Part shown: piece after piece, positions 1,542-42,940 of the stretch
Position numbering within the stretch: the stretch's first letter is position 1
How the letters are laid out: every line of letters starts with the position of its first letter
Assembly (NCBI GenBank): GCA_018066245.1
Contig: JAGHRT010000032.1
Location: forward strand, 1 to 43,239
Direction of reading: 5' to 3'
Origin: Candidatus Equimonas faecalis
Lineage (GTDB): Bacteria; Bacteroidota; Bacteroidia; Bacteroidales; Bacteroidaceae
Length of the DNA stretch: 43,239 nucleotides
Translations under genes and position numbers: made by a program
Notes under the pieces: generated by a model
Database searches by the model: none
What the model was told of the DNA's origin: nothing
The model's input: only the letters and a program-made list of their open reading frames with translations

Positions 1542-1632
1542 ATAGGCCGGCAGAAACTGTCGGCGGACTACGAAAAACTGTCGTATAGACCTGTAAGAAC
1601 TATCCTATAGACTAATTTCAACTACCCTATAA
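1542..1632. repeat. Dispersed 21/22-bp repeat family, copy between rodA and the next gene
   Basis: The gap after rodA carries one inverted core (CTGTCGGCGGACTACG) followed by degenerate units built on TATAGAC and CTATAGACTAATTTCAAC. The same words recur at 3104-3412, 6170-6257, 10407-10500, 15811-15985, 31633-31709 and 38155-38262. No gene or terminator is obvious in this gap. Confidence 0.75.
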
Positions 1633-1701
1633 ACCCCTAAATCCTTCTCCTGCCGATGTTTCCCCCTGCGGGGAACAGAGCAGGACTCCTACTTAACTAC
1701 C

Positions 1702-2181
1702 GTGAACAATCCCAACGAAAAGAACGGCTCGCCGCTGGCCGGCATCTTCTTGGTGCTGGCCTTTGTGGCCGCAGCCGTTGCCCTGATTATCTTCCTCAAG
1801 AGTTCCACCACGCGCAGCCTCGACGGCGACGGCCGCCTGCGCACCACCGCCGACTCCCTCGTGGCCACGCCCGCCCTCGCCCCCGATGAGCCGGCTTCTG
1901 CCGACGCGCCTTTCGTGGTAGTGCCCGACACGATGATGGGCACCGACGGGCGCGAAGTCTCCGATGCCGGCTATGAAGACGGCTACTGGGCCGGCTACGA
2001 CGATGCCCACCTCGGGCAAGAGCGGGCCTCCTACGACGAGAGCTGCACCTTCCCCACGCCTGCCGAGCGGCGCAAGTATGCCCAGAACTACCGCGAGGGC
2101 TACGCCGAGGGCTGGCAGGCCGGCATCTTCGACCGCGAGGCTGCCGACCGGGCCGACGAACATAAAAAGATGCCGCAATGA
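1702..2181 (+). CDS. Small single-pass membrane protein with GY-rich motifs, unknown function
   Basis: This protein of 159 residues starts at GTG and has one N-terminal membrane segment near residues 12-33 (AGIFLVLAFVAAAVALIIFL). A Pro/Ala/Asp-rich linker follows, then two similar acidic motifs: GYEDGYWAGYDDA near residue 94 and YREGYAEGWQAG near residue 134. These YxxGYxxG motifs resemble short repeats found in Bacteroidota proteins of unknown role. The GTG start is chosen because it gives a short N-terminus before the membrane segment and no ATG lies nearby upstream. The stop overlaps the ATG of the next gene (ATGA arrangement), so the two are probably translationally coupled. I do not recognise a function. 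Confidence 0.72.
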   Translation: MNNPNEKNGSPLAGIFLVLAFVAAAVALIIFLKSSTTRSLDGDGRLRTTADSLVATPALAPDEPASADAPFVVVPDTMMGTDGREVSDAGYEDGYWAGYDDAHLGQERASYDESCTFPTPAERRKYAQNYREGYAEGWQAGIFDREAADRADEHKKMPQ

Positions 2182-3080
2182 CACGCCTCGCGCTCATACT
2201 GATGATGGTGGCGGGGGTGGGGATGCCGTCTCAGCTCCTTGCCGAGGACGTGTTCCGCCGCATGACCAGCTCCGACGACCTCACCGAGAACGCCGACTAT
2301 CTTGTGGGTGTCGTGATGCAGTCCCCTCATTCTGGTCCCTGGGTGCTTTATATTCTCTCTTCCAAGTCCTTCAAGACACACCTGACTGCCGTTGAGACGG
2401 CATTTCGGGAGGCTCCGGAAACGCTGGAGGCACCAGAGGGCAACTGCGTGTGGCGCATCGTGAGGTGCGGCGGCGATATAGCCCTGCGTAGTGCGGCGGG
2501 GCAGTACATCAGCAACCCTAAAGGTTCCGATCTGAGCCTGACTGCTTCGCCCTCCTTCTGGACTCCGCAGGACGAGGCCACGACCATATCCCTCCAAAAC
2601 ACCGCGACGGGAAAATACCTTGGCGGGGGGCATCTCAGCCGCTCCCCCTACACGCGCTATTTCGGTGCCTACGCAGAAGGCCCCCTTTGCCTCTACAAGC
2701 GCGAACAGGCCCCCGAGAGCCTCACTGCCTACGAGCGATTCTGGGAAGCCGACGGCTGCGAAACCCTCTGCCTGCCCTTCGCCTGCACGGTGCCCCAGCC
2801 CTTCACGGCCTATGCGGTGGGCGAGGGCAGCGGCGACCAGCCCACCTATACGCCCACGACAAGCCTCGGTGCAGGCCAACCCGCCGTGATAAAAGGGCCG
2901 AAAGGCCTGCTCTTCCGCGTGGAGGCTGTGGGGCCGCCCGCCGCAGCGCCCCAGCCGACCTACCTCACCGGCACCTTCCGCCCCCTGCGCCTGAACCAGG
3001 GGCGCGTGCTGACCGACCAAGGCTTTGAGCCCGTGGCCGAAGGGTGCTTCCTGCCCGCCTTCCGCGCCTACTTGAAATGA
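2178..3080 (+). CDS. Exported protein of unknown function, possible beta-trefoil-like modules
   Basis: This is a 300-residue protein with a signal peptide (MTRLALILMMVAGVGMPSQLLA). Mature segments such as IALRSAAGQYISNPKGS and ISLQNTATGKYLGGGH follow the pattern 'hydrophobic-L-x-S/N-x-x-x-G-x-Y-L/I'. This is seen in fascin or ricin-like beta-trefoil folds, and it also occurs in the post-catalytic region of the two C10 proteases downstream (for example YYLQSGLGNYIPAF). The likeness is judged by eye and is an inference. It shares a 4-bp overlap with the preceding membrane protein gene. The C-terminus lacks a clear T9SS tail. It lies immediately before the large repeat array. Confidence 0.72.
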   Translation: MTRLALILMMVAGVGMPSQLLAEDVFRRMTSSDDLTENADYLVGVVMQSPHSGPWVLYILSSKSFKTHLTAVETAFREAPETLEAPEGNCVWRIVRCGGDIALRSAAGQYISNPKGSDLSLTASPSFWTPQDEATTISLQNTATGKYLGGGHLSRSPYTRYFGAYAEGPLCLYKREQAPESLTAYERFWEADGCETLCLPFACTVPQPFTAYAVGEGSGDQPTYTPTTSLGAGQPAVIKGPKGLLFRVEAVGPPAAAPQPTYLTGTFRPLRLNQGRVLTDQGFEPVAEGCFLPAFRAYLK

Positions 3081-3103
3081 GCCGCCCGCTGCCAGCGAAA
3101 AAA

Positions 3104-3164
3104 AGTCCGCCGATAGGAAAAATTAGTCCGCCGATAGGAAAAACTGTCGGCGGACTAATTTCAC
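3104..3164. repeat. 21-bp repeat units, two direct and one inverted
   Basis: AGTCCGCCGATAGG begins at 3104 and again at 3125 (period 21). It is followed by the inverted form CTGTCGGCGGACTA at 3144-3157. This is the same core word found inside lptD, mutL and gldL. Confidence 0.85.
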
Positions 3165-3420
3165 CTACTCTATAGGCTGGGAAAAAGAAGTAGGCCGTCG
3201 CACCTGCGGCTCGGCGGACTTGTTTCACCTACTCTATAGGCTGGGAAAAAGAAGTCGGTTGCCGCACCTGCGGCTCGGCGGACTAATTTCACCTACTCTA
3301 TAGGCCGGGAAAAAGAGGTCGGTTGCCGCACCTGCGGCTCGGTGGACTAATTTCACCTACTCTATAGGCCAGGAAAAAGAGGTCGGCCGTCGCACCTGCG
3401 GCTCGGCGGACTGCGCACGC
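3165..3420. repeat. 64-bp tandem repeat array, four units
   Basis: Units begin at 3165, 3229, 3293 and 3357, with an exact period of 64. Each contains CTACTCTATAGGC, a run of A within GGGAAAAAGA, the near-palindrome GCACCTGCGGC (perfect GCCGCACCTGCGGC in the middle units) and the core CTCGGCGGACTAATTTCAC. The last unit diverges after about 3412. Inverted copies of the same 64-bp unit lie at 15811-15970. No coding gene is supported between 3081 and 3578; the rest of this gap (3413-3519) is GC-rich, with one more degenerate GTCGCGCCTGCGG word. Confidence 0.9.
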
Positions 3421-3519
3421 CAAGTCGGCCGTCGCGCCTGCGGTATCCCCCGCAAGGCCCCCGTTCCGTATCAATGCGTAGGCGCGTGTCGCCCGTCCGC
3501 GCGAATATCCTAAGGAAAG

Positions 3520-3551
3520 TTTGCAGGGGTCGCAATTTATTTGTAACTTTG
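3520..3551 (+). promoter_or_regulatory. Bacteroidota sigma promoter for the first C10 protease
   Basis: TTTG at 3520-3523 and TAACTTTG at 3544-3551 are separated by 20 bp. They match the Bacteroidota -33/-7 pattern (TTTG, about 19-21 bp, TAnnTTTG). The ATG at 3579 lies 27 bases after the -7 box. Confidence 0.75.
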
Positions 3552-3578
3552 TGCCCGCAACCATTCATATCCCCTCCG

Positions 3579-6155
3579 ATGAAAAGACTCATCCCCATAG
3601 CCCTTGCACTCCTCGGCCTGACAGCGCAGGCCGAAGTGCGCTCAGTGGACGCGATGCAAGGCATCGCCGCCGCTAAACTCAGCCAACTGAAATCTCCCGC
3701 CCTGCGAGCCAAAGTCCGCAGCGGCGAAAAACTCCGTGTTCTGGCCGACCGCAGCCAGCTCACCCTCTTCGGTTACGACCGTCAGGGCTGGGCGATTGTC
3801 AGCAAGGACGACCGCTTCCCGGCCGTGGTGGCCTACGGCGACTCGCCCCTCGACATGGACAACCTCTCCCCCGAGTTCCAGTGGCTCATGGAGGGCTACG
3901 ACCGAGGAATGGCCAAGGCCCTGACCGACGGCGGCGGCCTCGTGGCCCGCTCCGCTCCCATCCAGAGCAGCGTCCTCATGCCCGTGGAGCCTCTCGTGCA
4001 GACCCATTGGGCACAGTCCTGGCCCTACAACGCCAAGTGCCCCCGCATGATAATCGACGAGGGGGACGTGCAGTGCGTAACCGGCTGCGTGGCCACCGCC
4101 TTCGCCCAGGTGCTCTACTACCATAAGGCCCCGCTCACCATTCAGGGGAAGAAGTCCTACTTCTGGTCGAGTGAGGAGGACGGCACCCTGCGCAAGCTCA
4201 CCTACGACTTCGACGCCAATCCCTTCGACTGGGACAATATGCACCTCACCTACGACAGCGAACACAACTACTCCCAGACCGAGGTCGATGCCATCGCCAA
4301 TTTCATGTCGGCCTGCGGCGTGCTTGCCAACATGAACTACGGTTACAACTACGGCTCCGGTGCGCTCACCAACGAGGTAACCGAGGCCATCAACGCCTAC
4401 TGCACCGACATCCGCTCCACCGACCATGGCGGCAGTCATTGGTCTGCCGTGGACGTAAGCCTGATTGCGCGTGAGCTCAATGCCGGCCGTCCGCTCGTGT
4501 TCAGCGGCGGAGACGGCTACGGGCAGAATGGCCACTGCTTCGTCATCGACGGTGTGGACCAGGACGGCCTTATTCACTGCAACCTCGGCTGGGCTGGCGG
4601 CGGCGACGGCTACTATTCGCCCCAGACCCCCGGCGATTACAGCACCTTCTGCCGTCTGAACACCGTCATCCCCTGTACGCGCGTCGAGGCCGCCGAACCG
4701 CTGCCCGAACTCGCCGGCAAACTCATCACGGCCAGCACTGCTGCGCCCGCCACCGCCGTAAAGCCCAACACGTGGTACGTGCTCTACAACGAGGGGCGGA
4801 GCGTGGCTCTCGCCGACGACGGTACGGAAAAGAATGTGGGCATCAGTCCCGTCCTACCCGCCGCCCGGCGTGCCGAATATGCCGCCCGCGCCCTCGTGCG
4901 CTTCGTTCCCTCCGGCGATAAGTACTACCTGCAATCAGGACTCGGCAACTACATTCCCGCATTTACCAAGGGGCTCGGAGCAAAGCCCACGCAGAACAAA
5001 CAGGACACCTACTCCGTGAAATTCCTCAACGACGGCCACGCCGCACTGGTGGGCTACAACAACGTGGTCATGGAGTGCGGCCACGCCATCGTGAAGGGGC
5101 GTGAGGCCCAGACCGCCCTGGAGATTGGCGGCACCGAGAGTTGGCTGCTCTATCCCGCCACCGTGGCTGACGACCCCGCCGCCAAACCCGTGCAGACCAT
5201 AGAGAACAGCGTGGCCGAACTCAGGATGGTGAAGGGCGGCACAGCCGAACTTTCGGCCAGCGTACTGCCCGCCGATGCCAGCGTAGGCGACGTGATATGG
5301 GCAAGCGACAAAGCGGGCTATGCCAGTGTGGACAGTTACGGCATCGTTACCGCCAGGGCACGCGGCACGGCCACCGTTACAGCCCGGGCCGCCGATGGCA
5401 GCAAGGCGCAGGGCACGACCACCGTCTATGTGGGCACCCTGAGCAACGTCGAGGCCGTCAGCAATCTGAAGAACACCGCCACTTATCTCCTGAGCAACGT
5501 GGGCTACACGCAGGGCTACCTCATTGCCACCGACACCACCACCGCTTATCCCCAGCTGCGCGGCATCGTGCAGAAACAGGCCACTCCTGAGTGGATAGAC
5601 CCCCTCTATTGGGACGACCCGCAGCTTGGCAACGCCTACACCCAGTGGCAGCTGATGAAAGCCTCCGACGGGCAGTACTACCTCTACAACGTGGGAATGC
5701 GGCAGTTCCTTTCCAACGGCGCAGAGGAGAAGTCCGAATACGTGTTCAGCCGCACGCCCAAACCCGTCAGCATAAGCGTGGTGGGCAGCGATGACTTTAC
5801 GGGTGCCAGCACGCTGGCCGGCTATTTCTACATCAACGGCGGCAGCAACGACCGCAGCCGCCTGTGCGCCGGCACCGCCTATCCCAATCCCGCCCATTGG
5901 GTTTACAGCACCAATTCGGGAGCCAAGAAGCAAAGCGTGTGGAAGTTGGAGGAAACCAACGGCCTCGCCACCGGCCTCGACCTGCTCACCACCGCACAGC
6001 TGGACGAGTTGCTCAGCACCGACGGCGTTCACTCCACACAGACCCGCTCCGAGGCTGCACAGACCGGGGAATACGACCTCGCAGGCCGTGCGCTGCACAG
6101 CGGTAAAGCCCTGAAAGGCATCAGCATCCGTGCCGGACGAAAAATCATCAGATAG
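3579..6155 (+). CDS. C10 family (streptopain-like) cysteine protease with T9SS tail, paralogue 1
   Basis: This is a secreted cysteine protease of 858 residues. It has a signal peptide (MKRLIPIALALLGLTAQA) and a streptopain-type prodomain near residues 40-115 (LTLFGYDRQGWAIVSKDDRF). In the peptidase C10 domain the catalytic Cys170 lies in [11 protein letters not shown] and the likely catalytic His319 in NGHCFVIDG, followed by NLGWAGGGDGYY. Next come a region with YYLQSGLGNYIPAF, a BIG2-like Ig domain near residues 538-618 (ending RGTATVTA...TTTVYVG) and a final module. The C-terminus ends in ISIRAGRKIIR, typical of T9SS type A sorting tails. An upstream in-frame extension is possible, but ATG 3579 is chosen because it gives a clean signal peptide and follows a good promoter. 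Relatives include interpain A and PrtT. Likely cargo of the T9SS encoded at 31812-38066. Confidence 0.92.
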   Translation: MKRLIPIALALLGLTAQAEVRSVDAMQGIAAAKLSQLKSPALRAKVRSGEKLRVLADRSQLTLFGYDRQGWAIVSKDDRFPAVVAYGDSPLDMDNLSPEFQWLMEGYDRGMAKALTDGGGLVARSAPIQSSVLMPVEPLVQTHWAQSWPYNAKCPRMIIDEGDVQCVTGCVATAFAQVLYYHKAPLTIQGKKSYFWSSEEDGTLRKLTYDFDANPFDWDNMHLTYDSEHNYSQTEVDAIANFMSACGVLANMNYGYNYGSGALTNEVTEAINAYCTDIRSTDHGGSHWSAVDVSLIARELNAGRPLVFSGGDGYGQNGHCFVIDGVDQDGLIHCNLGWAGGGDGYYSPQTPGDYSTFCRLNTVIPCTRVEAAEPLPELAGKLITASTAAPATAVKPNTWYVLYNEGRSVALADDGTEKNVGISPVLPAARRAEYAARALVRFVPSGDKYYLQSGLGNYIPAFTKGLGAKPTQNKQDTYSVKFLNDGHAALVGYNNVVMECGHAIVKGREAQTALEIGGTESWLLYPATVADDPAAKPVQTIENSVAELRMVKGGTAELSASVLPADASVGDVIWASDKAGYASVDSYGIVTARARGTATVTARAADGSKAQGTTTVYVGTLSNVEAVSNLKNTATYLLSNVGYTQGYLIATDTTTAYPQLRGIVQKQATPEWIDPLYWDDPQLGNAYTQWQLMKASDGQYYLYNVGMRQFLSNGAEEKSEYVFSRTPKPVSISVVGSDDFTGASTLAGYFYINGGSNDRSRLCAGTAYPNPAHWVYSTNSGAKKQSVWKLEETNGLATGLDLLTTAQLDELLSTDGVHSTQTRSEAAQTGEYDLAGRALHSGKALKGISIRAGRKIIR

Positions 6156-6169
6156 ACCCCTGCGGCCTG

Positions 6170-6257
6170 TCCTATAGACTACGGAAAACTACCGTATAGA
6201 CTACGGAAAACTACCGTATAGACTACGAAAAACTATCCTATACACTCGCAAAAACGA
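6170..6257. repeat. 22-bp tandem repeat between the two protease genes
   Basis: Four units of about 22 bp built on TATAGACTACGGAAAACTA, with starts near 6170, 6192, 6214 and 6236; the last is degenerate. The middle units are nearly exact. The same TATAGACTACGAAAA word occurs at 10478-10495, and related words occur at 1581-1632 and 38217-38262. No separate promoter is evident before the next gene, so the repeat may sit in a transcribed leader. Confidence 0.85.
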
Positions 6258-6283
6258 TTAGATAAACCAAGAGCAACTACCCT

Positions 6284-8886
6284 ATGAAACGCTACACACT
6301 CACCCTTTTTGCCGCAGTGCTCGCCCTGCTGTCCGTGCAGGCCGACCGCCGCACCGATGCGGCCATGCGCCAACTGGCCGCACAAGCCCTCAGTCAGACC
6401 AACTCCACCCGCCTCCGCACCAAAGCACAGGAGGTGCAGGACTTGAAAGCGGTCAAGACGATGGAGCAACTCACCCTCTTCGCCTACGATGACGCAGGCT
6501 GGGCCATCGTCAGCCACGACGATGCCTTCACGCCCGTACTCGGCTACGGCGATTCCCCCCTCGACATGGCAAACCCCTCACCCGAGTTCCTCTGGCTCCT
6601 CAAGACATTCAACGCCGGCATGGCCGACGACCTGAAGCAAGGCACCGCCAGCACACGCCGGCAGGTAAGGAGCAAGACCTGCTCCGTGCTCCGTGAGGTC
6701 AAGCCCCTCCTCAAGACCAACTGGAACCAGGCCTGGCCCTACAACACCAAGTGCCCGATGGTCCAGGGGGAGTATGGCAAGGAGTATTGCATAACGGGCT
6801 GCGTCGCCACCGCCTTCGCACAGGTGCTCTACTACCTCAAGTTGCCACGCAAAGCCCACGGCACAAAATCATACACGTGGGCCAATACCGTGGAAGACAA
6901 TCCCCAAGTGCTCTCCTACGACTTCAGCGCACAGCCCTTCGACTGGGACAACATCCCCGTTAATTACGACCCCGTGAAAGGCACCAAGGCACAGCTCGAT
7001 GCACTGGGAAACCTTATGTACGCCTGCGGAGTGATGGCTAACATGAACTACACGCCTACCGGAAGCGGCGCAGCATGTCCCACGGTCAGCAACAGCATCA
7101 ACAATCACTTTGAAGACCTCACCAGTCAGACCGTCGGCTACTACCAGCCCAAGAATGGCACACACATGCCCGCCGACCTCATAGCCTCTGAGCTGAATGC
7201 AGGCCGCCCCTTGGTGTTCTCCGGATCCGACAAAGACGAGAAGAACGGCCATGCCTTCGTCATTGACGGCTCGGACGCTAAGGGTTACGTCCACTGCAAC
7301 CTCGGTTGGAGCGGTCAGGGCAATGGCTACTTCGCCATGGACGAAATGAGCGGCTATCCCACCTTCCAGACGCTCTCCACCGTCGTTCCCTCCGTCAATC
7401 TCGCCGTGGGTAAGCCCTGCGCCGACCTGAACATGAAGTCCCTCACCGCCGACACCAAACATCCCGCCACCGAACTCACCTCTGGCCAATGGTACGTCAT
7501 GTGGAACGAGGGCCGCAGCGTAGCCCTCTGCGACAAGGGAAAAGGCGTAGCCGTAGGCACAAGCACGTGGCTCCCCGACGGAAAACGCTCCGAGTATCTG
7601 GCCAGCACGGTCGTGCGACTTGTGCCCAATGCCGCAGGCACCCGCTATTCCATCCAGACGGGCCTTGGCAACTACCTCCCCGCTTTCGGACAGAACGCTA
7701 CGGGAAACGCTACGACATCCAGCGCCGCCACCTACGCCATCAGTACAATCGTCGATACAAGCGGTCAAGTACAGGACGGGCACTTCTGCTTAGTTTCCAC
7801 TTCCAACGTGAGAATGGATTGCAACGGCAACAACATTGTGGGCTGGGAGACGGGTACGACCAAGGAGGTCGGCGGCAATGCCAGCTGGCAGTTCTATCCT
7901 GTGAGCCTGGCCGACGTTACAAATCACAAGCCCGTAGAGGACATCATACTTGAGGCCGACACCGTGCGCCTCCTCGTAGGAGGAAAGTACGCCCTGTCGC
8001 CCACAGTTACGCCTGCCGATGCGAGCGTGCCGTATGTCAGCTGGACAAACAGCAAGAACGTAGTGGCAGCCGTGGACAACGGCGGAAACATTACCGCTAA
8101 GACGGCCGGAACCACACTTATCACAGCCTCAAGCGTGGACGGAACCGACCTGGCACGCACTTGCACCGTGATGGTAGGCACTCGCAAGCAGACAACGAAA
8201 CTCAGCAGCCTGATGTTCTCCTCTATTTACCTGCTGATGAACGGAGCCGGCACGGGAGGCTATCTTGTGGCCGACGGGGAAGATGCCACCCACCCCGTGC
8301 TGCGCGGCATCCAAGCGAAGTCCGCTGCCGGCTGTAAGGATGAGCTGTACTGGGAAGACGCAGAGCTGGGCCATCCCACCACTCTTTGGCAGATTCCGCA
8401 GGATGAGGCCGGCAACTACTACCTCTACAATCTCGGAGTGGGCAAGTTCCTCGTCAATGGGGAGGGAGAGCAGACAGAATACGTATTCAGCGATACGCCC
8501 AAGCCTGTGAGCATTGCAGCTGTCGGCGAGGCAGACTTCACGGACAGTAAGGAGTGGATAGGCTCCTTCTACTTTAATTGCGGCCAGACCGACGGCAGCC
8601 GCCTGATGGCCGCCACCAATTTCCTCAACCCCGCCCATTGGCTTGACTCCGAGACGGTGGCTCGCAAGAAGCAAAGCGTCTGGACTGTCAGCAGCGTGAG
8701 TGGCCTGAACAAGGGCTTGAAGGTTTGGACGAAGGATGCCTTCAATAAATTCATAGCCCCTGAGGGCATTTCCTCCGCCAGCCTGCGTGGCGGCCAGTCA
8801 AGCGTGGCCCGCGACCTGACGGGGCGTGCCGTTGCCCAGCCCGCCCGTGGCGTGGTCATTCAGGGCGGTAAGAAAATCATACGCTG

Positions 8887-8887
<1 letters not shown>
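6284..8887 (+). CDS. C10 family (streptopain-like) cysteine protease with T9SS tail, paralogue 2
   Basis: This 867-residue paralogue of the preceding protein has the same domain order. It has a signal peptide ([20 protein letters not shown]), a prodomain ([20 protein letters not shown]), catalytic Cys173 in [11 protein letters not shown] and His323 in NGHAFVIDG, then [27 protein letters not shown] region, a BIG2-like domain near residues 545-630 and a terminal module follow, and the protein ends in [11 protein letters not shown] as a T9SS-type tail. Both active-site residues are intact, so it is probably active. The pair looks like a tandem duplication that has diverged clearly. The stop codon overlaps the start of sufB by one base (TGATG). 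Confidence 0.92.
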
Positions 8888-10332
<1,445 letters not shown>

Positions 10333-10357
10333 ATCCCGCGTAGCCCGTACACCGCCG

Positions 10358-10404
10358 AATGCTCCCTTGCAGCGTAGCCCGTACTATTCTGCAAGGGAGC
10401 ATTT
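10358..10404 (+). terminator. Long perfect hairpin after sufB, terminator-like
   Basis: AATGCTCCCTTGCAG at 10358-10372 pairs perfectly with CTGCAAGGGAGCATT at 10389-10403, around a 16-nt loop. A weak T/C tract follows. The word GCGTAGCCCGTAC occurs twice, once before the stem and once in the loop (starting near 10338 and 10372). Confidence 0.65.
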
Positions 10405-10406
10405 CC

Positions 10407-10500
10407 TACTCTATACAGTAGTCTTTCTTACTCTATACAGTAGCTTCTCCTACTCTATACAGTAGTTTCAACTGTCCGATAGACTACGAAAAGCCGTCCT
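10407..10500. repeat. 22-bp tandem repeat, three units, plus a degenerate dispersed-repeat copy
   Basis: TACTCTATACAGTAG starts at 10407, 10429 and 10451 (period 22). Each unit is close to an inverted repeat (CTACT...AGTAG). TTTCAACTGTCCGATAGACTACGAAAA-like sequence follows, split here as TTTCAACTGTCC and GATAGACTACGAAAA, which links it to the family seen elsewhere in the window. Confidence 0.85.
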
Positions 10501-10550
10501 ACAGGCTACGCCGCGCCCGCCCTGCGCCGCTGCCCACGGGTAAAAGAGTA

Positions 10551-10582
10551 GCCGCCCGCCTACTTGGGGTAGGCAGGCGGCA
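10551..10582 (-). terminator. Terminator of the tRNA-Arg transcript
   Basis: On the minus strand GCCGCCTGCCTAC pairs with GTAGGCGGGCGGC across a short loop (one central mismatch). TACTCTTTTAC follows. It lies a few bases past the tRNA 3' end. Confidence 0.7.
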
Positions 10583-10589
10583 CACTACG

Positions 10590-10663: not shown

Positions 10664-10697
10664 GCAACCTATAGGCAAGCCTTGTCGGTTCTGCCGG

Positions 10698-10861: not shown

Positions 10862-12850
10862 ATGGACACCCCCGAAATTCCACAAAACGAAGCCGAAGGC
10901 CTGCGCCGCCTCACCCTTGAGGACGCCGCCTTGCGCGAAGCTCGTGAGCGGCGCCAGCTCCTCCGGCAAAGCATAGCCGACGAGCGTCGGCTCATAGCCG
11001 ACATCGACCGCCGCCGCGAGTGGCAGCAGCGCTTCGATGCCGCCGTCGCCCTGCTCCGACAGAATCAGCAGGAAGCCCAAAACGCCAGCCGAGCCTGGGC
11101 CGGCGAAAGCGCAGAGCGCGACAAACTGGCCCTCCACGACCGCCTCACCGGCCTGCGCCCCCTGTACGACCGAGCTGCCACCTTGCAGGATGTCCTCACC
11201 CGCACCCGCGAAGCCTTCATCAAGGGTGAGCAGGAACTCTCCCAAGTCAAGGCCCAGCGCGAGCAGGCCCGCAATGCCGCCGACGTGGCCCGCCAGCGCC
11301 GTTTCGACACCCACGAAGCCCTCCGGCGCCGACAGGCCGACTTCACCAGCGGCTACCGCATAGAAGGCTCCCTTGCCGCCCTCGAACGCCAGCTCAAGCA
11401 GGCCGACTCCGTGCTCCAGCAGACGCAACTCAACCTCGGCTCCAAAGAACGGGCCCTCAAGGAAATGCGATTGCAGGAGGCCGATGCCCTCAAGCAGTTG
11501 GAAGAAGCCCACACCCAGGTGAAGGGCCTCTCCGCCCACAGCGTGATGTTAGGCTTCTACGACCTGGTGAAGGATAAACTTACGGCCATGGGCCGTGAAC
11601 GCCTGATTAACGAAAAACTCCATGCCCAGCAGGCCGAGGCGGGGCGGCAGCGGGAAATGATGCGCCTGAGCATTCGCCAGCACGAAAGCGAGAAGGCCAC
11701 CCTCCAGCGCGAATACGACAAACACCGCTCCCAGCTGGCCATACTGGGGCAGTCCGCCGACACCATACTCGACGTTGTGCGGGCACCAATCATACGCGAT
11801 GCCGACGAAACCCAGCGACAACTGGAAAAGTTCTTCGACCTGCGGCTGCGCGTCCGCCGGTTGGAGGAACAGGTCCAGCTGGCCGACCTCCAGCTCCAGG
11901 CCAAGCGCGAACAACTTGAAAAGCTCAACACCGAGGCCGCCGTGGCCGACTCACACCGCCTCTCCCTCGAACAACTGATGCGGGAGAGCGACCAAGCCAT
12001 GGGCGTTCTCTACGCCGACCTCGACAAAATCATCACCCTGTCCGGCTGGTTCACCGAATGGCAGCACAACCCCGACGCGCTGCGCTCCCGAATCTCCAAA
12101 CTCTACCACGAGTGGCAGAACGCCCGCAACCGCCATGCCGAACAGACCCGCTCTGCCGCACTCATACGCGAGGCCCTGAAGGCCGCCGAGCAGAGCGTGG
12201 CCGAAGCGCGGCAGGAGGAAATACGCCAGAGGAACCAGCGCGATGCCGTGCGCCGCGAGTTGGAGAGCCAGAAGGAGAAGTTGCACGCCCTGTTCAGCGA
12301 GAAAGCTCCCGCCGCCGTGGAGCAGGCTCTGACGCAGGACTGCCAGCAGGCCGACAAGCAGATGGAAGATGCCAACGAATGCCTGAAAGAGGCGCAGGAG
12401 GCCTATCGCAGTTGCCAGAGCCGGCAGGACACGCTGCGCTCCGAGCAAGAGAAGTGTCAGGAACTCCTGCGCCAGGCCAATCTGGACATTGACCTCTGGA
12501 TACAGAACCACAACGCCGAGGGCCTGGCCGTACTCCAGCGCTCAGTGGTGGACGACATCTACAAAAGCCCTTGCGACTGGGTGCGCCTGCGCAGCCGCCT
12601 GGACGAATCGACCCTGCGCAAAGCCGTGGCCGCCACCCGCCAGGAAGACACCGACCGCGTGCTGGCCGGCCTGCAGTGCTCCCCCGCCGCCACACTCGGC
12701 GGCAAGGACGAAAGCCCTGCCCAGTGGCTGCAGCGCAAGCAAGAGGCCGAGCAACGCCTTGACCGCTTCGAAACCGAACTCCGCGAGGTGGAAGGCCGCC
12801 TCTATGCCCACGAACAGGCCCACCGTAAGATAGAAATGCTGATGCGCTGA
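10862..12850 (+). CDS. Large coiled-coil protein, SbcC-like rod without ATPase heads
   Basis: This 662-residue hydrophilic protein is almost entirely predicted coiled coil by eye: heptads rich in Glu, Arg, Gln, Ala and Leu run along nearly the whole length. Some stretches (LDIDLWIQNHNAEG, DWVRLRSRLDESTLRKAV) resemble the distal rod of SbcC-type Rad50/SMC proteins. No Walker A, signature or Walker B motif is present, there is no signal peptide, and no cysteine zinc hook of the form CxxC is seen. The protein has its own promoter-like box and an ATG near it, so it does not look like a simple 5' truncation, but it could be a decayed or domain-lost relative of sbcC. Its stop overlaps the lptD start by one base (TGATG), suggesting an operon with lptD. 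Function unknown; the SbcC likeness is an inference. Confidence 0.7.
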   Translation: MDTPEIPQNEAEGLRRLTLEDAALREARERRQLLRQSIADERRLIADIDRRREWQQRFDAAVALLRQNQQEAQNASRAWAGESAERDKLALHDRLTGLRPLYDRAATLQDVLTRTREAFIKGEQELSQVKAQREQARNAADVARQRRFDTHEALRRRQADFTSGYRIEGSLAALERQLKQADSVLQQTQLNLGSKERALKEMRLQEADALKQLEEAHTQVKGLSAHSVMLGFYDLVKDKLTAMGRERLINEKLHAQQAEAGRQREMMRLSIRQHESEKATLQREYDKHRSQLAILGQSADTILDVVRAPIIRDADETQRQLEKFFDLRLRVRRLEEQVQLADLQLQAKREQLEKLNTEAAVADSHRLSLEQLMRESDQAMGVLYADLDKIITLSGWFTEWQHNPDALRSRISKLYHEWQNARNRHAEQTRSAALIREALKAAEQSVAEARQEEIRQRNQRDAVRRELESQKEKLHALFSEKAPAAVEQALTQDCQQADKQMEDANECLKEAQEAYRSCQSRQDTLRSEQEKCQELLRQANLDIDLWIQNHNAEGLAVLQRSVVDDIYKSPCDWVRLRSRLDESTLRKAVAATRQEDTDRVLAGLQCSPAATLGGKDESPAQWLQRKQEAEQRLDRFETELREVEGRLYAHEQAHRKIEMLMR

Positions 12851-15765
12851 TGAAACGTGCCCTCTTTGCCATACTCCTTTCCAGCCTTGCCCTGAGCCTT
12901 GTATTTGCCCGGGGCGGGGGCGTGCCTGTGGCAACGTGGGCCAACGATTCCCTGCCGGAAGCCGACACCGCCCTAAGGACAGGCGAAACTACTCCGCCGA
13001 CAGTTTCAACTAGTCCGCCGATAGTTTCAACTAGTCCGCCGACAGTTTTAACTAGTCCGCCGACAGTGGACAGCCTCGGCGGGGGCGCTGATTCCGTCGC
13101 TCTGCGGCCGCGCACCATCCTGCCGCAGGCCGACAGCATCGCCAAGGAGCAGGCCGACTCCACCGCCTCCGACAGCCTGAAGCCCCGCCGCTCAGGCATC
13201 GATGCCCCCATCCATTTCACGGCCTCCGACAGTATCGTGTATGTGGCCAAGACCCGTCTGGCCCATCTCTATGGCAACGCCGACGTAACCTATCAGAACA
13301 TGCAGCTCACCGCAGCCCGCATGACCATGAATATGGACTCCTCGCTTGTCCATGCCAACGCCACGGAACCCGACTCCTTGGGCAATATGGACGGCCGCCC
13401 CGTCTATAAGCAGGGAGGGGAGAGCTACACGAGCGATGCCATGAGTTTCAACTTCAAGACCAAGCGCGGTTTCATCCACAACGTCAATACGCAGCAGGGC
13501 AACGGCTACATGATTTCCGACCGCGCCCGCCGCGACGACGACGGCACCATCTACATGGAGAAAGGCCGCTACACGACGTGCGATGATGAGCATCCGCACT
13601 TCTACCTCCAGCTCACGCGGGCAAAGGCCCGCCCGGGCAAAGACATCATCTTCGGACCGGCCTACCTCGTCGTAGAGGATGTGCCGCTGCCTCTCGCCGT
13701 GCCCTACGGCTTCTTCCCCTTCTCGAAAAAGTACAGCTCCGGCATCGTCATGCCTTCCTACGGCGACGAATACTCCCGCGGCTTCTATCTGCGCGACGGC
13801 GGCTACTATTTCGCCATCAACGACTACATGGACTTCAAGGCCTTGGGTGAGATTTACACCAAGGGCTCCTGGGGCGTCAGCGGGGAGTTCAATTACCGCA
13901 AGCGCTACCGCTATTCGGGCAATTTCTACGTCAATTACCTCCACACCGTCGAGGGTGAAAAGAACATGCCCGACTATTCCGTCACCAAGAGCATCAAGGT
14001 GCAGTGGTCGCACCAGAAGCAGGGCAACGGCTCCAACGGCTACAACTTCTCCGCCCGCGTGAACTTCGCCAGCCAGGCTTTTGAGCGTAAGAACCTTGAG
14101 TCGCAGTACAACCCCCTGTCCTATTCGCAGTCCACCAGGGCTTCGTCCGTCAGCTGGAGCAAGACTTTCGACAAAATCGGCCTTAGCCTGTCCGCCTCGG
14201 GCAATCTGACGCAGAACATGCGCGACTCTTCGCTCTCCGTCTCCTTGCCTGAACTCTCCATCAACCTCTCACGCGTCTATCCCTTCAAGCGTAAGCGCCA
14301 GGCCGGCCGCGAGCGGTGGTACGAGAAGATCAGTTTCTCCTACACCGGCCAGCTGTCAAACTCCTTCAGCGGTAAGGAGAGCAAGTTGCTTCATTCCAGT
14401 TTCCTTCGGGACTGGAGGAACGGCATGCAGCACCGCATTCCTGTCGATGCCACCTTCCAGTTGTTCAAGTACATTAATGTGACGCCGAACTTCAGCTTCC
14501 GCGACATCATGTATAAGGAAAAGGTGAACCGCTCCTGGGACGTGGAACGCCAGCGGGAGGTCTGCGACACCACCTACGGCTTCCACAATCTCTACGACTG
14601 GAGCGCGGGCATCTCGCTCAACACCACGCTCTACGGCTTCTACCGGCCCGTGGCCAAGTTCTTGCAGAAGAAAGTCGTGATGGTGCGCCACGTCCTGAAA
14701 CCCGCCGTCAGCGTGAGCTTCGCGCCCGACTTCACGAAAGAGAGCTATGGCTACACCACGTCTTACGTAAAGACCGATGCCGAGGGCAATGTATCTACGG
14801 TAACCTATTCCCCCTATCAGGGAATGCTCTACGGCTACCCCTCCAGCGGCAAGCAGGGCATGGTGTCCATGTCGTTGAGCAACAATCTGGAAATGAAGGT
14901 GCGCTCCGACCGCGATTCTACGGGAGTGAAGAAAATCAGCCTGATAGACGAGCTTTCGGCCAGTATGTCGTACAACATGGCGGCGAAGGTGAAGCCGTGG
15001 AGCGACCTCAGCGTGCGCCTCCGCCTGAAACTCACCAAGAGCTATACGTTCTCGATGAACGCCGTCTTTGCCACCTATGCCTACGAGTTCGACAGAAACG
15101 GCAACGTCGTAGTGGGCAACTCCACGGAGTACAGCCACGGACGCTTCGGCCGCTTCCAGGGAATGTCGCAAAACATCAGCTACACACTGAACAACCAGAA
15201 GCTCAGCGAACTCTGGGAGAAAATAACGGGGCAAAGGCCGTGGCGGGAAAGCAAGAATAAGGATGACGGGCGGCAGCAGGACGAGGCCGACGACGATGCG
15301 GAGGAGTCCAACGTGGACCCCGACATCCGCAAGGCGCAGAAGGGCGGCAAGAAAGAGCAGAAGGCGAAGGTGGATGCCGACGGCTACCTGACTTTCTCCT
15401 TGCCGTGGAGCATCTCCTTCAGCTACGGCATCACGATGGCCGAAAACCGCCAGGCGAAAATCAACCCCAAGCGTATGCGCTACCCCTACAAGTTTACGCA
15501 TTCGCTCAACTTTTCGGGCTACCTGCGCATTGCCGAGGGATGGAACATCACCTGGAGCAGCGGCTACGACTTCAACTATCACAAGCTCTCCACCACCACC
15601 GCTTCGCTCTCGCGCGACTTGCATTGCTTCGAGATGACGGCTTCTGTGGTGCTGGCCCCCTACACGTCCTACAACTTTACCTTCCGAGCCCGCGCCTCGG
15701 AGCTGATTGATGCTTTGAAGTGGGACAAGCGCTCTTCCTACAGCTCCAACGTGCAGTGGTATTAA
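12850..15765 (+). CDS. lptD: LptD, LPS-assembly outer membrane protein (Bacteroidota type)
   Basis: A 971-residue outer membrane protein with a signal peptide (MKRALFAILLSSLALSLVFA). A low-complexity stretch follows, then an OstA/LptA-like beta-jellyroll near residues 115-250 (YVAKTRLAHLYGNADVTYQN) and a long C-terminal beta-barrel with alternating aromatic strands, for example YRYSGNFYVNYLH. The motif VPLPLAVPYGFFPF is typical of Bacteroidota LptD-like proteins. LptD places LPS into the outer leaflet. Residues 47-75 are an in-frame run of the dispersed DNA repeat, read as TSPPTV units (see the repeat entry). A second acidic, charged insertion lies near residues 800-840. It is translationally coupled to the coiled-coil gene upstream. 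Confidence 0.9.
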   Translation: MKRALFAILLSSLALSLVFARGGGVPVATWANDSLPEADTALRTGETTPPTVSTSPPIVSTSPPTVLTSPPTVDSLGGGADSVALRPRTILPQADSIAKEQADSTASDSLKPRRSGIDAPIHFTASDSIVYVAKTRLAHLYGNADVTYQNMQLTAARMTMNMDSSLVHANATEPDSLGNMDGRPVYKQGGESYTSDAMSFNFKTKRGFIHNVNTQQGNGYMISDRARRDDDGTIYMEKGRYTTCDDEHPHFYLQLTRAKARPGKDIIFGPAYLVVEDVPLPLAVPYGFFPFSKKYSSGIVMPSYGDEYSRGFYLRDGGYYFAINDYMDFKALGEIYTKGSWGVSGEFNYRKRYRYSGNFYVNYLHTVEGEKNMPDYSVTKSIKVQWSHQKQGNGSNGYNFSARVNFASQAFERKNLESQYNPLSYSQSTRASSVSWSKTFDKIGLSLSASGNLTQNMRDSSLSVSLPELSINLSRVYPFKRKRQAGRERWYEKISFSYTGQLSNSFSGKESKLLHSSFLRDWRNGMQHRIPVDATFQLFKYINVTPNFSFRDIMYKEKVNRSWDVERQREVCDTTYGFHNLYDWSAGISLNTTLYGFYRPVAKFLQKKVVMVRHVLKPAVSVSFAPDFTKESYGYTTSYVKTDAEGNVSTVTYSPYQGMLYGYPSSGKQGMVSMSLSNNLEMKVRSDRDSTGVKKISLIDELSASMSYNMAAKVKPWSDLSVRLRLKLTKSYTFSMNAVFATYAYEFDRNGNVVVGNSTEYSHGRFGRFQGMSQNISYTLNNQKLSELWEKITGQRPWRESKNKDDGRQQDEADDDAEESNVDPDIRKAQKGGKKEQKAKVDADGYLTFSLPWSISFSYGITMAENRQAKINPKRMRYPYKFTHSLNFSGYLRIAEGWNITWSSGYDFNYHKLSTTTASLSRDLHCFEMTASVVLAPYTSYNFTFRARASELIDALKWDKRSSYSSNVQWY
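12988..13074 (+). repeat. Dispersed repeat inside lptD, four 21-bp units in frame
   Basis: Four units of 21 bp carry TCCGCCGACAGTTT or TCCGCCGATAGTTT, read as CCG-CCG-ACA-GTT (Pro-Pro-Thr-Val). They lie in the disordered segment after the signal peptide. The same DNA occurs in intergenic regions of this window. Confidence 0.9.
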
Positions 15766-15810
15766 GTCCCGCATTTCCCGTTCCGTAGGCCGCTTTCAGC
15801 CCGGCCTCCG

Positions 15811-15985
15811 AGCCGCATGTGCGCAGGCCGAACTCTTTTCCCCAGCCTATAGAGTAGCAAAAATTAGTCCGCCGAGCCGCAGGTGCGGCAACCGAACTCT
15901 TTTTCCCAGCCTATAGAGTAGCAAAAATTAGTCCGCCGAGAGTGAGAACTGTCGGCGGACTAATTTCAACTGGCCTATAGGGCCG
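15811..15985. repeat. Inverted copies of the 64-bp repeat plus core units
   Basis: CAGCCTATAGAGTAGC occurs at 15843 and 15907 (period 64), each followed by AAAAATTAGTCCGCCGAG. These are reverse complements of the 3165-3420 array, and a partial third unit precedes them. An inverted pair, AGTCCGCCGAGAGTG and CTGTCGGCGGACTA, follows at 15930-15962. The gap 15766-16091 lies between convergent genes and otherwise holds a short hairpin AGGCCG...CGGCCT near 15787-15807. Confidence 0.88.
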
Positions 15986-16091
15986 TCGTGCGGAGAATAG
16001 GGTGGTCGTGCCTGCGGTATGGCGGACAGGTTTCAATGGCCAGCCGCTGGCGAAGCCTCCATTAGGCATCAGGCATTTTCAGTAGGCGCTC

Positions 16092-27875: not shown

Positions 27876-29390
<1,515 letters not shown>

Positions 29391-29541
29391 GTGATTTTTT
29401 CCGAGAGTAGGCTGGATTTTTCGCTAAAAAATGTCCCTTGTGCGCAAAAAGCCGAGGCTGGGGCGCGGGAAAGGCAGGTGCAGGTTTCCTTTTGGGAGGC
29501 GGGGGATGGCCGGGGGGATGGTGTGAACCGGTTGAAGGAAT

Positions 29542-29581
29542 CCCCTGAAAAGTGCTGGGAAAATGCCAGTTTTTTCAGGGG
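29542..29581. terminator. Perfect hairpin after porT
   Basis: CCCCTGAAAA pairs with TTTTCAGGGG, with an inner CTGG/CCAG stem. It lies 30 bases past the porT stop on the minus strand. No external T-run follows, so it may be a processing or stabilising hairpin instead of a classic terminator. Confidence 0.5.
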
Positions 29582-29611
29582 AAGGGGTTTCTTAGGTGCG
29601 GTGTGTACACC

Positions 29612-30343: not shown

Positions 30344-30476
30344 TATGCAACGCTCCTCTCCGGTGGGGGAGGGGAGTGTCCTTCTGAGGGTTTGGCGGAG
30401 GGGAGGGAAGCGGTGCATTGTTCGGGAGGATAATTGCGGTTGCTCTTGTTGCCGGCAACGTCTGCCGGCGGAGGGG

Positions 30477-31598: not shown

Positions 31599-31632
31599 GG
31601 TAAGATGTATTGGTGGAATGTTTCTTCCTTGT

Positions 31633-31709
31633 TTATAGGATAGCTTTTATTAGTCTATACGATAGCGGAAATTAGTCCGCCGACAGTTTCCCCTGGTCTA
31701 TAGGATGGG
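31633..31709. repeat. Dispersed repeat copy between the sulfotransferase gene and gldN
   Basis: Contains TATAGGATAG, TTAGTCTATACGATAG, TTAGTCCGCCGACAGTTTC and CTATAGGATGG. A short perfect hairpin TTCCGGA-TGC-TCCGGAA follows at 31711-31727. The rest of the gap to 31811 holds nothing I recognise. Confidence 0.8.
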
Positions 31710-31811
31710 ATTTCCGGATGCTCCGGAAGTCCATGTCTCTCTATAAGCCAAGTTTTTCTCCTTTCAGGGAGAGTCAGAGGAGACCGTGGCGGGAGGCCGG
31801 CTGCAGGCGGC

Positions 31812-32915: not shown

Positions 32916-32929
32916 CTTGTTCCTTGTTT

Positions 32930-34483: not shown

Positions 34484-34552
34484 GGTGTGTGGAGTTAAAA
34501 GTTAGGAATTAAAAGGGTAGGCAGTGAGCGCTTGGTCTCCTTTACTTTTAAT

Positions 34553-35596
34553 TTATGCCTCGCCGCCGGCTGCGGCGGGGTTGGCCATGATGTTGAGCTG
34601 CTGCATCATGCGTGCGTAGATTTGGTTCACTTCGTCAATCTTCTTGGCCAGTTCGCGCGTCTGGTCGTTGATTTGTTCGATGGTGGTTACCTGCTTGCTG
34701 ATGCTGGCGAAGTGGAGCTCGTAAATCTTGTTGATGCCGATGAGCGTGCGGTTGAGGTTTTCCATCTCCTGGGAGTCGCGGGTGAGTCGAGAGGACTGCT
34801 CGTCCACCTTCTGGAGGGTGTCGGTGAGGGTGCGGAGCTTTTCGATGTAATCCTGAGAGGCGGCCTCCATGTCGGGGGAGAGCACGGCCTGAGCACGGTG
34901 CAGCAACTCGTCGTTGGCCATACGGATGATTTTTGCCAGTCGGTCGGACTCTTCACCGCCTTCGGGCATGGCTGCGCTGATGGCATCGGAAATGATCTGG
35001 TCGGTTGCAGAGAGGGGGGCCTGGGGGGCGTTGCCTGTGGCTGGAACGGCCTGGCTTCCGCCTGCGGCTCCGCCGCCGATGACCACGGTGCCACCGCCGC
35101 CCTGTCCGCCACCGATGATGACGGTGCCGCCTGCGCCTGTGCCTGCCGTGGCTGCCACGGCCTCACCTTCCGCACCGGTAGCGGGTTGAGAGCCGGCGAG
35201 GGGAACGCCCACGACAGGACTTCCGCTCACGGGGCCGCCGACAGGATTTATTACTCCGCCGACAGTTTGTCCTACTCCGCCGACAGTTTGTCCTACTCCG
35301 CCGACAGTTTCGCCTTCTTCTTCCTCCACGTAGTCGTCGGCTACGGTGGCTTCGCCCGTCTTATCGAAAGGACGGTCGAAAGCCGAGATGAAGAACACGA
35401 ATACCTCCGTGCCCATGCCCACAAAGAGCATGAGGTTGGCTCCGGCTATATGGGTGAGCTTGAAGAGCGTGCCGAGGATGATGATGGACGCGCCCCAGTT
35501 GTAGGCATAGTTGAGGAAGGTCTGGCCGGGCACGCTGTCCATCCAGCGTTGCATACGGGCCACGAGGTTTACTATAGGGTTTGCTTTCTTGGGCAT
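34553..35596 (-). CDS. gldL: GldL (PorL), type IX secretion motor protein
   Basis: A 347-residue inner membrane protein with two N-terminal membrane helices (residues about 33-73; NWGASIIILGTLFKLTHIAG, GMGTEVFVFFISAFDRP). The C-terminal cytoplasmic helical region starts near residue 195 (ATDQIISDAISAAM) and ends in a coiled coil. GldL is the stator-like partner of GldM. The linker between the two parts (residues about 92-195) is greatly expanded: first an in-frame run of the dispersed DNA repeat (TVGGVGQ units, residues 95-121), then a Gly-rich segment with TVIIGGGQ and TVVIGGGA. It is 2 bases from gldK. Confidence 0.94.
   Translation of the reverse strand: MPKKANPIVNLVARMQRWMDSVPGQTFLNYAYNWGASIIILGTLFKLTHIAGANLMLFVGMGTEVFVFFISAFDRPFDKTGEATVADDYVEEEEGETVGGVGQTVGGVGQTVGGVINPVGGPVSGSPVVGVPLAGSQPATGAEGEAVAATAGTGAGGTVIIGGGQGGGGTVVIGGGAAGGSQAVPATGNAPQAPLSATDQIISDAISAAMPEGGEESDRLAKIIRMANDELLHRAQAVLSPDMEAASQDYIEKLRTLTDTLQKVDEQSSRLTRDSQEMENLNRTLIGINKIYELHFASISKQVTTIEQINDQTRELAKKIDEVNQIYARMMQQLNIMANPAAAGGEA
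35234..35314 (-). repeat. Dispersed repeat inside gldL, three 21-bp units in frame
   Basis: On the plus strand ACTCCGCCGACAGTTTGTCC recurs every 21 bp, with a diverged fourth unit. The gene reads the complement, ACT-GTC-GGC-GGA, as Thr-Val-Gly-Gly. This is the opposite strand and another frame compared with lptD and mutL. Confidence 0.9.
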
Positions 35597-35598
35597 GG

Positions 35599-37050: not shown

Positions 37051-37106
37051 ATTCCTTATATATTAATAATGTGCGAAAGGGTGGTCGGGGGGAGCGGGGC
37101 TTCGGC

Positions 37107-38066
37107 TTACAGCCAGCGGACGCTTTTGTGGAGATTGCGGCCCTTTTTCCCGAGGTTCAGGTCCAGCTTGTAGCCCAGCGACACCTCGTGCTGTCCTGCG
37201 CCGAGCCCCATTCCTTGGGTGTTGGCCTCATAGGAGTAGCAGATGTTGATGCCGTGGAACACGCAGCCGGCGAAGATGGTGAAGCTGTGCTTTGGGGCGT
37301 AGCTGGCTCCGAAGTTGAAGTTTTTGGTGTCGCGCTCAAAGATGAATCGGGCGGTCAGGTCGCCGCGCCAGGAGAGCAGGTCGGTGCGAAGGATGGCGGA
37401 GGGCACCATTTTGAAGTAGGGGTTGCCGGTGTGGACGGTGTAGGCGGCGTTCATGTAGTAGTGCCGCTTGGTCTGATACTGGTTTTTGTCGCCCAAATCC
37501 ACGGTCGGGGCGAGAGCGTGGCTTAGGGCAAGTCCCACGCTCAGGTCTTTCCACTGATAGAGCAGGCCGACGCTGAGGTCGAAGCCTGAACCGGTCATTT
37601 GGCTTGAGCTGAAGGCGGGGTCGGAGGGGTCTTCAAGGTCGGCCTTGGAGCCGTCGGCGCTTTCCTGGAGCAGGTCGGCTTGCACGCCGAGGCTAAGGTG
37701 GTGGGCCTTCTTCTGTCCCATCCTGAACTGGTAGGCATACTGCACGGCGAACTTCTTGTGGCTGAAGATGCCGATGTTGTCGGCTTGGAACAGCGCACCC
37801 GCCCCGTGGCGTGTCTTGCCCAGCATGAAGGCCACGTCGGCCCCTGCAAAGAGGGTCTGTCCGGCTTGCTGGAAGCCGGCGGCGTGGGTTTGGAGGGCGG
37901 CGGTTATGTTGAGTTGGTCCGACTTGCCCGCCGCTGCGGGGTTGTACTGCGTTTCCACCATCCAGTACTGGGCATAGAGTGGGTCTTGCTGGGCGTTGGC
38001 GTGGAGCGAGGCCACGACAAGGAGCAGGCTCACTATGGTCGGGATGGAGGGAATACGGCGTGCCAT
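37107..38066 (-). CDS. porP: PorP/SprF family type IX secretion membrane protein
   Basis: A 319-residue outer membrane beta-barrel with a signal peptide (core PTIVSLLLVVASLHANA). The family start QDPLYAQYWMVETQYNPAAAG is clear (short form: DPLYAQYWM and YNPAAAG), and the C-terminus has strands such as HEVSLGYKLDLNL. PorP is part of the T9SS outer membrane complex and is the first gene of the porP-gldKLMN operon here. A weak -7-like box (AAGTTTTG on the minus strand) lies about 20 bases upstream, but it is not a confident promoter. Confidence 0.93.
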   Translation of the reverse strand: MARRIPSIPTIVSLLLVVASLHANAQQDPLYAQYWMVETQYNPAAAGKSDQLNITAALQTHAAGFQQAGQTLFAGADVAFMLGKTRHGAGALFQADNIGIFSHKKFAVQYAYQFRMGQKKAHHLSLGVQADLLQESADGSKADLEDPSDPAFSSSQMTGSGFDLSVGLLYQWKDLSVGLALSHALAPTVDLGDKNQYQTKRHYYMNAAYTVHTGNPYFKMVPSAILRTDLLSWRGDLTARFIFERDTKNFNFGASYAPKHSFTIFAGCVFHGINICYSYEANTQGMGLGAGQHEVSLGYKLDLNLGKKGRNLHKSVRWL

Positions 38067-38154
38067 AACAATTCACTAACGCAAAACTTTTCCATTTATT
38101 ATGCGCGGGTGTGAGTTTTTTTAAGGAAAAAAGCGGCTGGCCTGCTGAAACCGT

Positions 38155-38262
38155 AGTCTGTTGGCGGACTTCGCCTCGCTAATCTATAGACTGCGCACAA
38201 TTAGTCCGCCGATAGGAAAAACTCTCGGCGGACTACGAAAAACTCTCGGCGGACTACGAAAT
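38155..38262. repeat. Dispersed repeat copies between recG and porP
   Basis: A single TTGGCGGACTTCG is followed by CTATAGACTGCGC and AGTCCGCCGATAGG, then two direct inverted-core units (ACTCTCGGCGGACTACGAAA, starts 38221 and 38242, period 21). The gap 38067-38328 otherwise holds nothing I recognise. Confidence 0.85.
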
Positions 38263-42939: not shown

Positions 42940-42940
42940 C

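Follow-up and report, generated by a model that had tools for sequence, protein, structure and literature searches.

Box arrays in the window

We analyzed a 43,239-bp stretch of the Candidatus Equimonas faecalis genome (contig JAGHRT010000032.1, or G000:C8:1-43239 in our numbering; hereafter the window), which carries arrays of short, regularly phased DNA boxes both in the gaps between genes and, in frame, inside genes. Two types of unit were found. The C unit reads TAGTC-CGCCGA-NAG followed by a 7-base linker and measures 21 bp, and the T unit reads TAGTC-TATAGGA-NAG followed by a similar linker and measures 22 bp. Each array is listed below as its series of C and T units, with signs for their orientation, and open reading frames (ORFs) hosting an array are listed with it.

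1551-1619: array C-T-T-, boxes at 22-bp steps, flanked by ORFs that end at 1470 and start at 1693
3098-3418: long array C+C+C-T-C-T-C-T+T+C-, 64-bp super-units with the GCCGCACCTGCGGC hairpin
6161-6253: array T-T-T-T+, between ORFs 3474-6155 and 6284-8887, no exact TCCGCCGA
10343-10513: array C+T+T+T+T-T-, downstream of ORF 8887-10332, first box weak (2 mismatches), no exact TCCGCCGA
12850-15765, + strand: host ORF, LptD_2 family, 971 aa (Pfam E 3.2e-154)
12985-13072: in-frame array C+C+C+C+, four 21-bp units in the LptD-like ORF, peptide TSPPTVL and similar
15837-15989: array T-C+T-C+C-T-, 64-bp super-unit, tandem repeat called from 15808
21434-23305, - strand: host ORF, MutL, 623 aa (Pfam DNA_mis_repair, MutL_C)
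22128-22173: in-frame array C-C-, in the MutL linker, peptide KSADSFPKSADSF
31623-31711: array T-T+C+T-
34553-35596, - strand: host ORF, GldL, 347 aa (Pfam GldL_N)
35247-35313: in-frame array C+C+C+, within GldL, peptide ETVGGVGQ
38152-38261: array C-T-C+C-C-

The core word TCCGCCGA was matched 26 times in the window, compared with a mean of 1.99 and a maximum of 5 in 100 shuffles. The initial annotation had described about 25 copies with a period of 21-22 bp, in both orientations, in gaps and inside three genes; all of this was borne out, the genes being those encoding the LptD-like protein, MutL and GldL. It had also counted nine or more loci. Ten arrays were called, but TCCGCCGA itself occurs in only 8 of them (23 of the 26 matches), and the three remaining matches (11753, 21969, and 39788) are solitary, lie in ORFs without an array, and look like chance occurrences. 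The accompanying CTATAG module is present, but it proved to be a second box type on a common lattice, with a 22-bp instead of a 21-bp step. The arrays at 6161-6253 and 10343-10513 are mainly of the T type.

The excess extends to the whole source genome (G000; 2.59 Mb in 62 contigs). TCCGCCGANAG was found in 328 copies compared with 20 for its reversed control, and the exact 14-mer TAGTCCGCCGACAG in 74 copies (31 forward and 43 reverse) compared with 0, so the core is neither confined to the window nor at its expected frequency elsewhere. The 14-mer was found in none of the 100 relatives searched, which comprise many incomplete genomes and include 57 congeners (58 genomes in the genus with G000). 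A species-specific word in excess on both strands throughout a genome is a feature of DNA uptake sequences (DUS). The repeat is real and larger than first described.

Arrays were called in 849 kb of G000, in two batches of 453 kb and 396 kb. Because the contigs of both batches came from lists of core-match positions, with the richest in the first, the array density is not representative. A stricter rule removed 3 of the 114 arrays called first, leaving 111 in the first batch; with 42 in the second, this gives 153 arrays with a total span of 14.4 kb, 32 of them within ORFs of at least 120 aa. Genes were called as the longest ATG-initiated ORFs of at least 120 aa, and some starts are wrong while some small array-bearing ORFs may not be genes. 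For example, the AroA ORF fits its family only from position 95, and the start of the FtsW-like ORF probably lies downstream of its array. GldL, SusC-like, and LptD_2 proteins are encoded, as suits a member of Bacteroidota.

A box consists of a core, of the CGCCGA or the TATAG type, flanked by TAG/CTA ends, and both cores and linkers can be oriented either way. The most frequent linkers (TTTTTCC, GAAAAAC, TTTTTCG, and GAAAAAT) are A/T tracts in either orientation. Boxes of both types share one lattice of about 21.5 bp, or two helical turns. Among all unit pairs at most 100 bp apart in the first 453 kb, with weak two-mismatch units included, distances fell at 18-24, 40-47, 60-68, and 82-91 bp with seven strays (15, 36, 38, 53, 72, 74, and 96), and this held for every combination of type and orientation. 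The distances of 19 and 24 are put down to the off-centre reference points of flipped units. One-step inverted neighbours in these 453 kb were C+C- in 19 cases and C-C+ in one. Arrays typically hold two to six units, most often four (72/153), and their box part measures about 45-130 bp. Adjacent linkers of one array differ at 3.84 of 7 positions (88 adjacent pairs) compared with 4.29 of 7 between arrays. At array ends, a CCTAAGGAGAG-like form was in register in 9 of 306 cases, and the word itself was not in excess (168 vs 177 for the control).

The 64-bp repeats at 3147-3412 and 15805-15940 consist of boxes plus an extra hairpin module. This separate GCCGCAGGTGCGGC module lies within some arrays, yielding super-units of 42 or 64 bp (the two repeats above and loci L024 and L025), as if another REP-like repeat (REP, repetitive extragenic palindromic) used the arrays as landing sites. 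ORFs 3474-6155 and 6284-8887, with a T-type array between them, resemble tandem paralogs (DNA blocks 72-80% alike at a spacing of ~2.7 kb). At 42939-43239, an 85-bp tandem repeat, its 3.5 copies 97-99% alike, runs into the end of the window; its sequence is unrelated to the boxes. The sole Rfam match in the window at the gathering threshold was a tRNA.

Arrays inside genes and along the genome

The 32 in-gene arrays are held by 29 distinct ORFs, and a Pfam scan of 20 of these found a family for 18. The host families are LptD, MutL, GldL, PriA, UvrA, FtsW/RodA, AAA helicase, RlmL, THUMP-like, alpha-2-macroglobulin (A2M), radical-SAM of the UPF0004 type, carbohydrate-binding protein, amino-acid permease, C26/M19 peptidase, TamB, FolP (Pterin_bind), TPP enzyme, and 7TM-HD protein. 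The array peptides vary (TSPPTVL, KSADS, VGGLGET, NCRRT, and LSADYEK) because frames and strands vary between genes, and the arrays explain odd peptide repeats in host proteins such as KSADS, VGGLGET, and SPPTV. For four hosts, the array stretch is missing from the aligned ortholog of a congener: AAA helicase (G040), A2M (G039), THUMP-like (G051), and permease (G035). In-frame insertion into ORFs combined with absence from orthologs is a feature of Rickettsia palindromic elements and of miniature inverted-repeat transposable elements (MITEs). The MutL linker is variable in all three species compared and the LptD region bearing the array aligns poorly, so neither provides a clean case of insertion. 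Units within ORFs were 60 C and 12 T compared with 109 C and 182 T outside, and such dominance of C units is expected if 22-bp steps break frames. In a FolP-like ORF (L163, 7938-8801), a four-box array directly follows the TPDSF stretch of a dihydropteroate-synthase-like protein, which we take to be an unusual insertion site in an enzyme.

Arrays avoid each other at short range. We compared 142 neighbour intervals with a null in which arrays were placed randomly in gaps no shorter than 80 bp, in-gene arrays being free to fall anywhere. No interval was below 750 bp (9.6 expected), one was below 1000 bp (15.6 expected), and two were below 1250 bp (21.4 expected). The second batch alone gave 0 vs 3.4 below 1250 bp (P = 0.02) and 0 vs 1.6 below 750 bp (P = 0.19). 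Since the overall coefficient of variation was the same as in the null, the effect is one of short-range exclusion; in this range the spacing is more even than chance, as is that of DUS. For the 22 in-gene arrays retained under the stricter rule in the first batch, the distance to other arrays exceeds that of randomly chosen positions in the host gene (mean percentile 0.74, Wilcoxon P = 0.0008). A deletion hazard between neighbouring repeats could also yield such exclusion. Array density rises with coding GC (rho 0.57, 83 windows) and is weakly related to gene conservation (window correlation P = 0.06, Fisher P = 0.14).

The gaps between genes were occupied without strong preference for their type: 18 of 46 divergent gaps carried arrays, compared with 26/56 and 73/189 for the other gap types. 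A role as transcription terminators or RNA hairpin elements is very improbable on this evidence. The inverted C+C- neighbours do form hairpins, and divergent gaps hold few of them (1, compared with 10 in convergent and 11 in tandem gaps). Folding is also better in arrays than in shuffled sequences (mean z -3.17, 121 intergenic arrays; -1.86, the 32 in ORFs). However, divergent gaps are occupied at a similar rate, and arrays also occur within ORFs and between genes that abut in a sister genome. A promoter role was rejected along with the terminator role, as gap type shows no clear preference.

Junctions and cores in related genomes

We compared 13 orthologous gene pairs between G000 and G039, the genome called its sister. 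An array was present in G000 only at 5 junctions, in G039 only at 0, and in neither at 8. At four of the five, the array-free spacers of G039 measure 63, -20, 3, and 2 bp compared with 237, 382, 136, and 150 bp in G000; the 382-bp gap includes the AroA start, so the real gap is shorter. At the fifth, the spacer is 1777 bp in G039 and 96 bp in G000. At the three cleanest junctions, the gaps of G000 are about 130-175 bp longer than those of the sister. A further congener, G009, is closer to G000 judging by one protein (CorC-like, 85% identity vs 81% for G039). Its topoisomerase-CorC spacer of ~95 bp has no boxes and its CorC and AroA genes overlap by 4 bp, whereas G000 has an array at both junctions. 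Neither the exact C 14-mer nor, at one mismatch, the T 15-mer was found in G009. The simplest reading of these junctions would be that the arrays were gained in G000.

The two-turn lattice suggests a bound protein, whether the analogy to insertion elements or that to uptake sequences holds, and the protein-binding site proposed in the initial annotation fits the helical lattice and the mutual spacing. Together with the four-box size and the minimum spacing, the lattice makes a recognising protein plausible and testable. The arrays could even be helically phased binding sites maintained by selection for a nucleoid- or chromosome-organising protein. This would account for a lattice that spans box types and orientations, the modal four boxes with their exclusion zone, adjacent linkers barely more alike than those of different arrays, and the lack of a strong preference among convergent, tandem, and divergent gaps. 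We nevertheless consider it decidedly unlikely, as there are long array-free stretches (for example, ~41 kb of contig C15), as G009, which one protein places nearest to G000, lacks arrays at both junctions read there, and as block insertion would still be required.

Some congeners carry repeats of the same step with other cores. In 770 kb from 22 congeners, the commonest tandem-repeat periods were 21 (26 repeats) and 22 (16), followed by 18 (12), although 21 is also an ordinary coding period; in 8 of the 22, no repeat of period 20-23 was found in the 15-60 kb sampled. Genomes sampled from the family and the order gave 3 and 5 such repeats in 140 and 184 kb, respectively. Local slippage generating 21/22-bp tandem repeats, without any element, would explain why these periods are the commonest. 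We find this highly improbable, given the identical cores at hundreds of loci, the single lattice shared by boxes of mixed type and flipped orientation, and the weak similarity of linkers within arrays.

The congener cores, read by eye, include CTACCTCAGAGGTAG with TTTTTT in G057, GTGGCAGGCCTTGCCAC in G019, CCTAGGTGCGCTCCTAG with TTTTT in G031, and others. The G057-type core CTAYCTCNGAGRTAG is found at 48 sites in G057, at 16 in G048, at one each in G004 and G029, and at none in the other 54 of the 58 genus genomes, G000 included. G057 has 8 arrays in 320 kb, 0 of 8 in ORFs, so the spacing sample there is only 7 intervals. G039 has the T type plus a 21-bp type of its own, TAGTCGCCRACTA. An excess of the linker word TAGTTTTTCNTA is clear in G000 (80), G031 (140), G055 (84), G039 (29), and G007 (26), with controls at 0-4, and mild in G028 (10), G051 (9), and G015 (11, control 3); in most of the genus genomes beyond the first five (53), the word is at or near baseline. 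As the core differs between congeners and linker words recur, the core varies while the step and, in a subset, the linker persist. This is a clear example of dispersed DNA turning over in concert, and it makes the arrays species-specific DNA tags. Neither the species-specific cores of the relatives nor the exclusion between arrays had been foreseen in the initial annotation. A scan of a genome collection for a C box followed by TAGTC one step on, in which the genome's own and near-identical records were possibly left out, gave one match, a lone site without neighbouring boxes on an Elusimicrobia contig; viral contigs gave 0 matches. In G039 (L050-L058), we also observed several repeats of 7-bp and 9-bp period (ATAAGAA and CTAGACAAC), mostly in gaps.

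The species specificity raises the possibility, if an unlikely one, that the arrays act like DUS, allowing self-recognition for import and recombination and spreading by molecular drive, with one array per recombination fragment. This would agree with species-specific words on both strands, with the even spacing at short range (2 of 142 intervals below 1.25 kb, 21.4 expected), with in-gene arrays lying far from other arrays, many of them in conserved genes, with the rise of density with coding GC, and with a ComEC-family protein encoded in G000. However, ComEC occurs widely (in 10 of 14 control genomes), arrays were not significantly enriched near conserved genes, the overall spacing varied as in the null, and the G057-type core is sparse. 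Moreover, four-box arrays gained as blocks are unlike known DUS, which are single 10-12-mers or pairs. A study of Neisseria describes DUS spacing equal to conversion-fragment length and permissive sites in the core genome, a parallel to our arrays, but also that one DUS suffices and that two very close DUS do not increase transformation (PMC2397512). The reading could be extended, rather doubtfully, to a genus-wide code in which each species would have its own core, displayed in phased arrays (with an A/T linker common to several species) whose smallest separation would approximate the length of a recombining fragment. Import or recombination proteins would then prefer conspecific DNA, and the core would turn over as its reader protein changes. 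To our knowledge, this would be the first dialect system in Bacteroidota and the first built of multi-box arrays.

Origin of the arrays and known systems

Among the 114 arrays called first, 111 matched some other array, with a median cover of 54% and a median identity of 86% for the best match. The closest sharing was between one pair of arrays in two different genes (75 bp at 97%). Copying of whole arrays does not account for this set, nor does simple tandem duplication, and the modules therefore seem drawn from a genome-wide pool; local tandem duplication as the sole source is weak, as linkers within arrays are barely more alike than those between arrays. The proposal of a mobile or actively copied element is partly supported: the array-free junctions and the in-frame stretches missing in orthologs speak for insertion, while active copying of whole elements is not shown. 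Nor is the suggested RAYT partner supported. G000 has three matches to Y1_Tnp (RAYT-type), which is present in 28 of the 58 genus genomes, G000 included, but the flanks of the two G000 genes read by eye carry REP-like repeats of other sequence, and these flanks do not support RAYT as the mover. In other species, six RAYT flanks (one cut at the gene and one cut downstream) showed no adjoining copy of the species' own 21/22-bp arrays. RAYT genes (L115, L011, L102, L105, and L110) have their own REP-like repeats nearby, by eye different in each species.

We favor, with a probability of about 0.5, the reading that the arrays are miniature insertions of modular build, a family similar to Rickettsia palindromic elements. 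Arrays would have been gained in the G000 lineage as blocks, both in gaps and in regions of conserved proteins that tolerate them, and within genes only frame-keeping insertions would survive, favouring the 21-bp box. They would spread, as mainly selfish DNA, by a copying process, probably not RAYT, in which boxes and linkers are used again either way round; our guess is that templates are switched between arrays where these share TAG-A/T-tract-CTA junctions. Genome-wide exchange would keep the core uniform within a species and allow divergence between species.

Several observations weigh against this reading. Loss in G039 and G009 may have occurred instead of gain, and target-site duplications are not visible because the relatives are too diverged. 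None of the 114 arrays was matched by another at 90% identity or more across 80% or more of its length, unlike an active MITE. Terminal inverted repeats and target-site duplications mark MITEs and Rickettsia palindromic elements; at the array ends, only one degenerate outer box was seen in common. Exclusion within ~1.25 kb is unexpected for a plain mobile element without target immunity. No mover enzyme was found, the systematic search being limited to Y1_Tnp. Finally, other 21/22-bp repeats also exist in the 849 kb, some of them coding, and 36 of the 130 tandem repeats of period 20-23 lie outside arrays.

A literature search of titles and the beginnings of abstracts, with most subscription journals outside its scope, gave no description of such arrays in Bacteroidales. 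Known systems share some of their features. DUS and uptake signal sequences (USS) have species dialects. Like our arrays, they occur in genes and gaps and as inverted pairs, with a spacing linked to recombination (PMC2397512). The present arrays differ in being multi-box and gained as blocks. REP and REPIN sequences, associated with RAYT, are short dispersed palindromic repeats that form inverted pairs and are species-specific, all of which our arrays resemble, and G000 too has RAYT genes, although the two read are flanked by repeats other than the arrays. Cyanobacterial small dispersed repeats have units of ~20-25 bp, and are likewise both tandem and dispersed; we know of no two-turn lattice or species-specific core exchange among them. 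CRISPR arrays have a constant repeat and unique spacers of ~25-40 bp, and were rejected as a match since the linkers here measure ~7 bp and are reused. Rickettsia palindromic elements also lie in gaps, and no mover is known for them. They are described as elements of ~150 bp in several families, with 44 in-frame insertions into unrelated genes of R. conorii, and our arrays are like them in block insertion, in-frame tolerance, and lineage specificity (PMC10969869). The present arrays differ in forming no full-length sequence family and in being composed of 21/22-bp boxes whose cores and linkers are each oriented independently, with species-specific cores and mutual exclusion.

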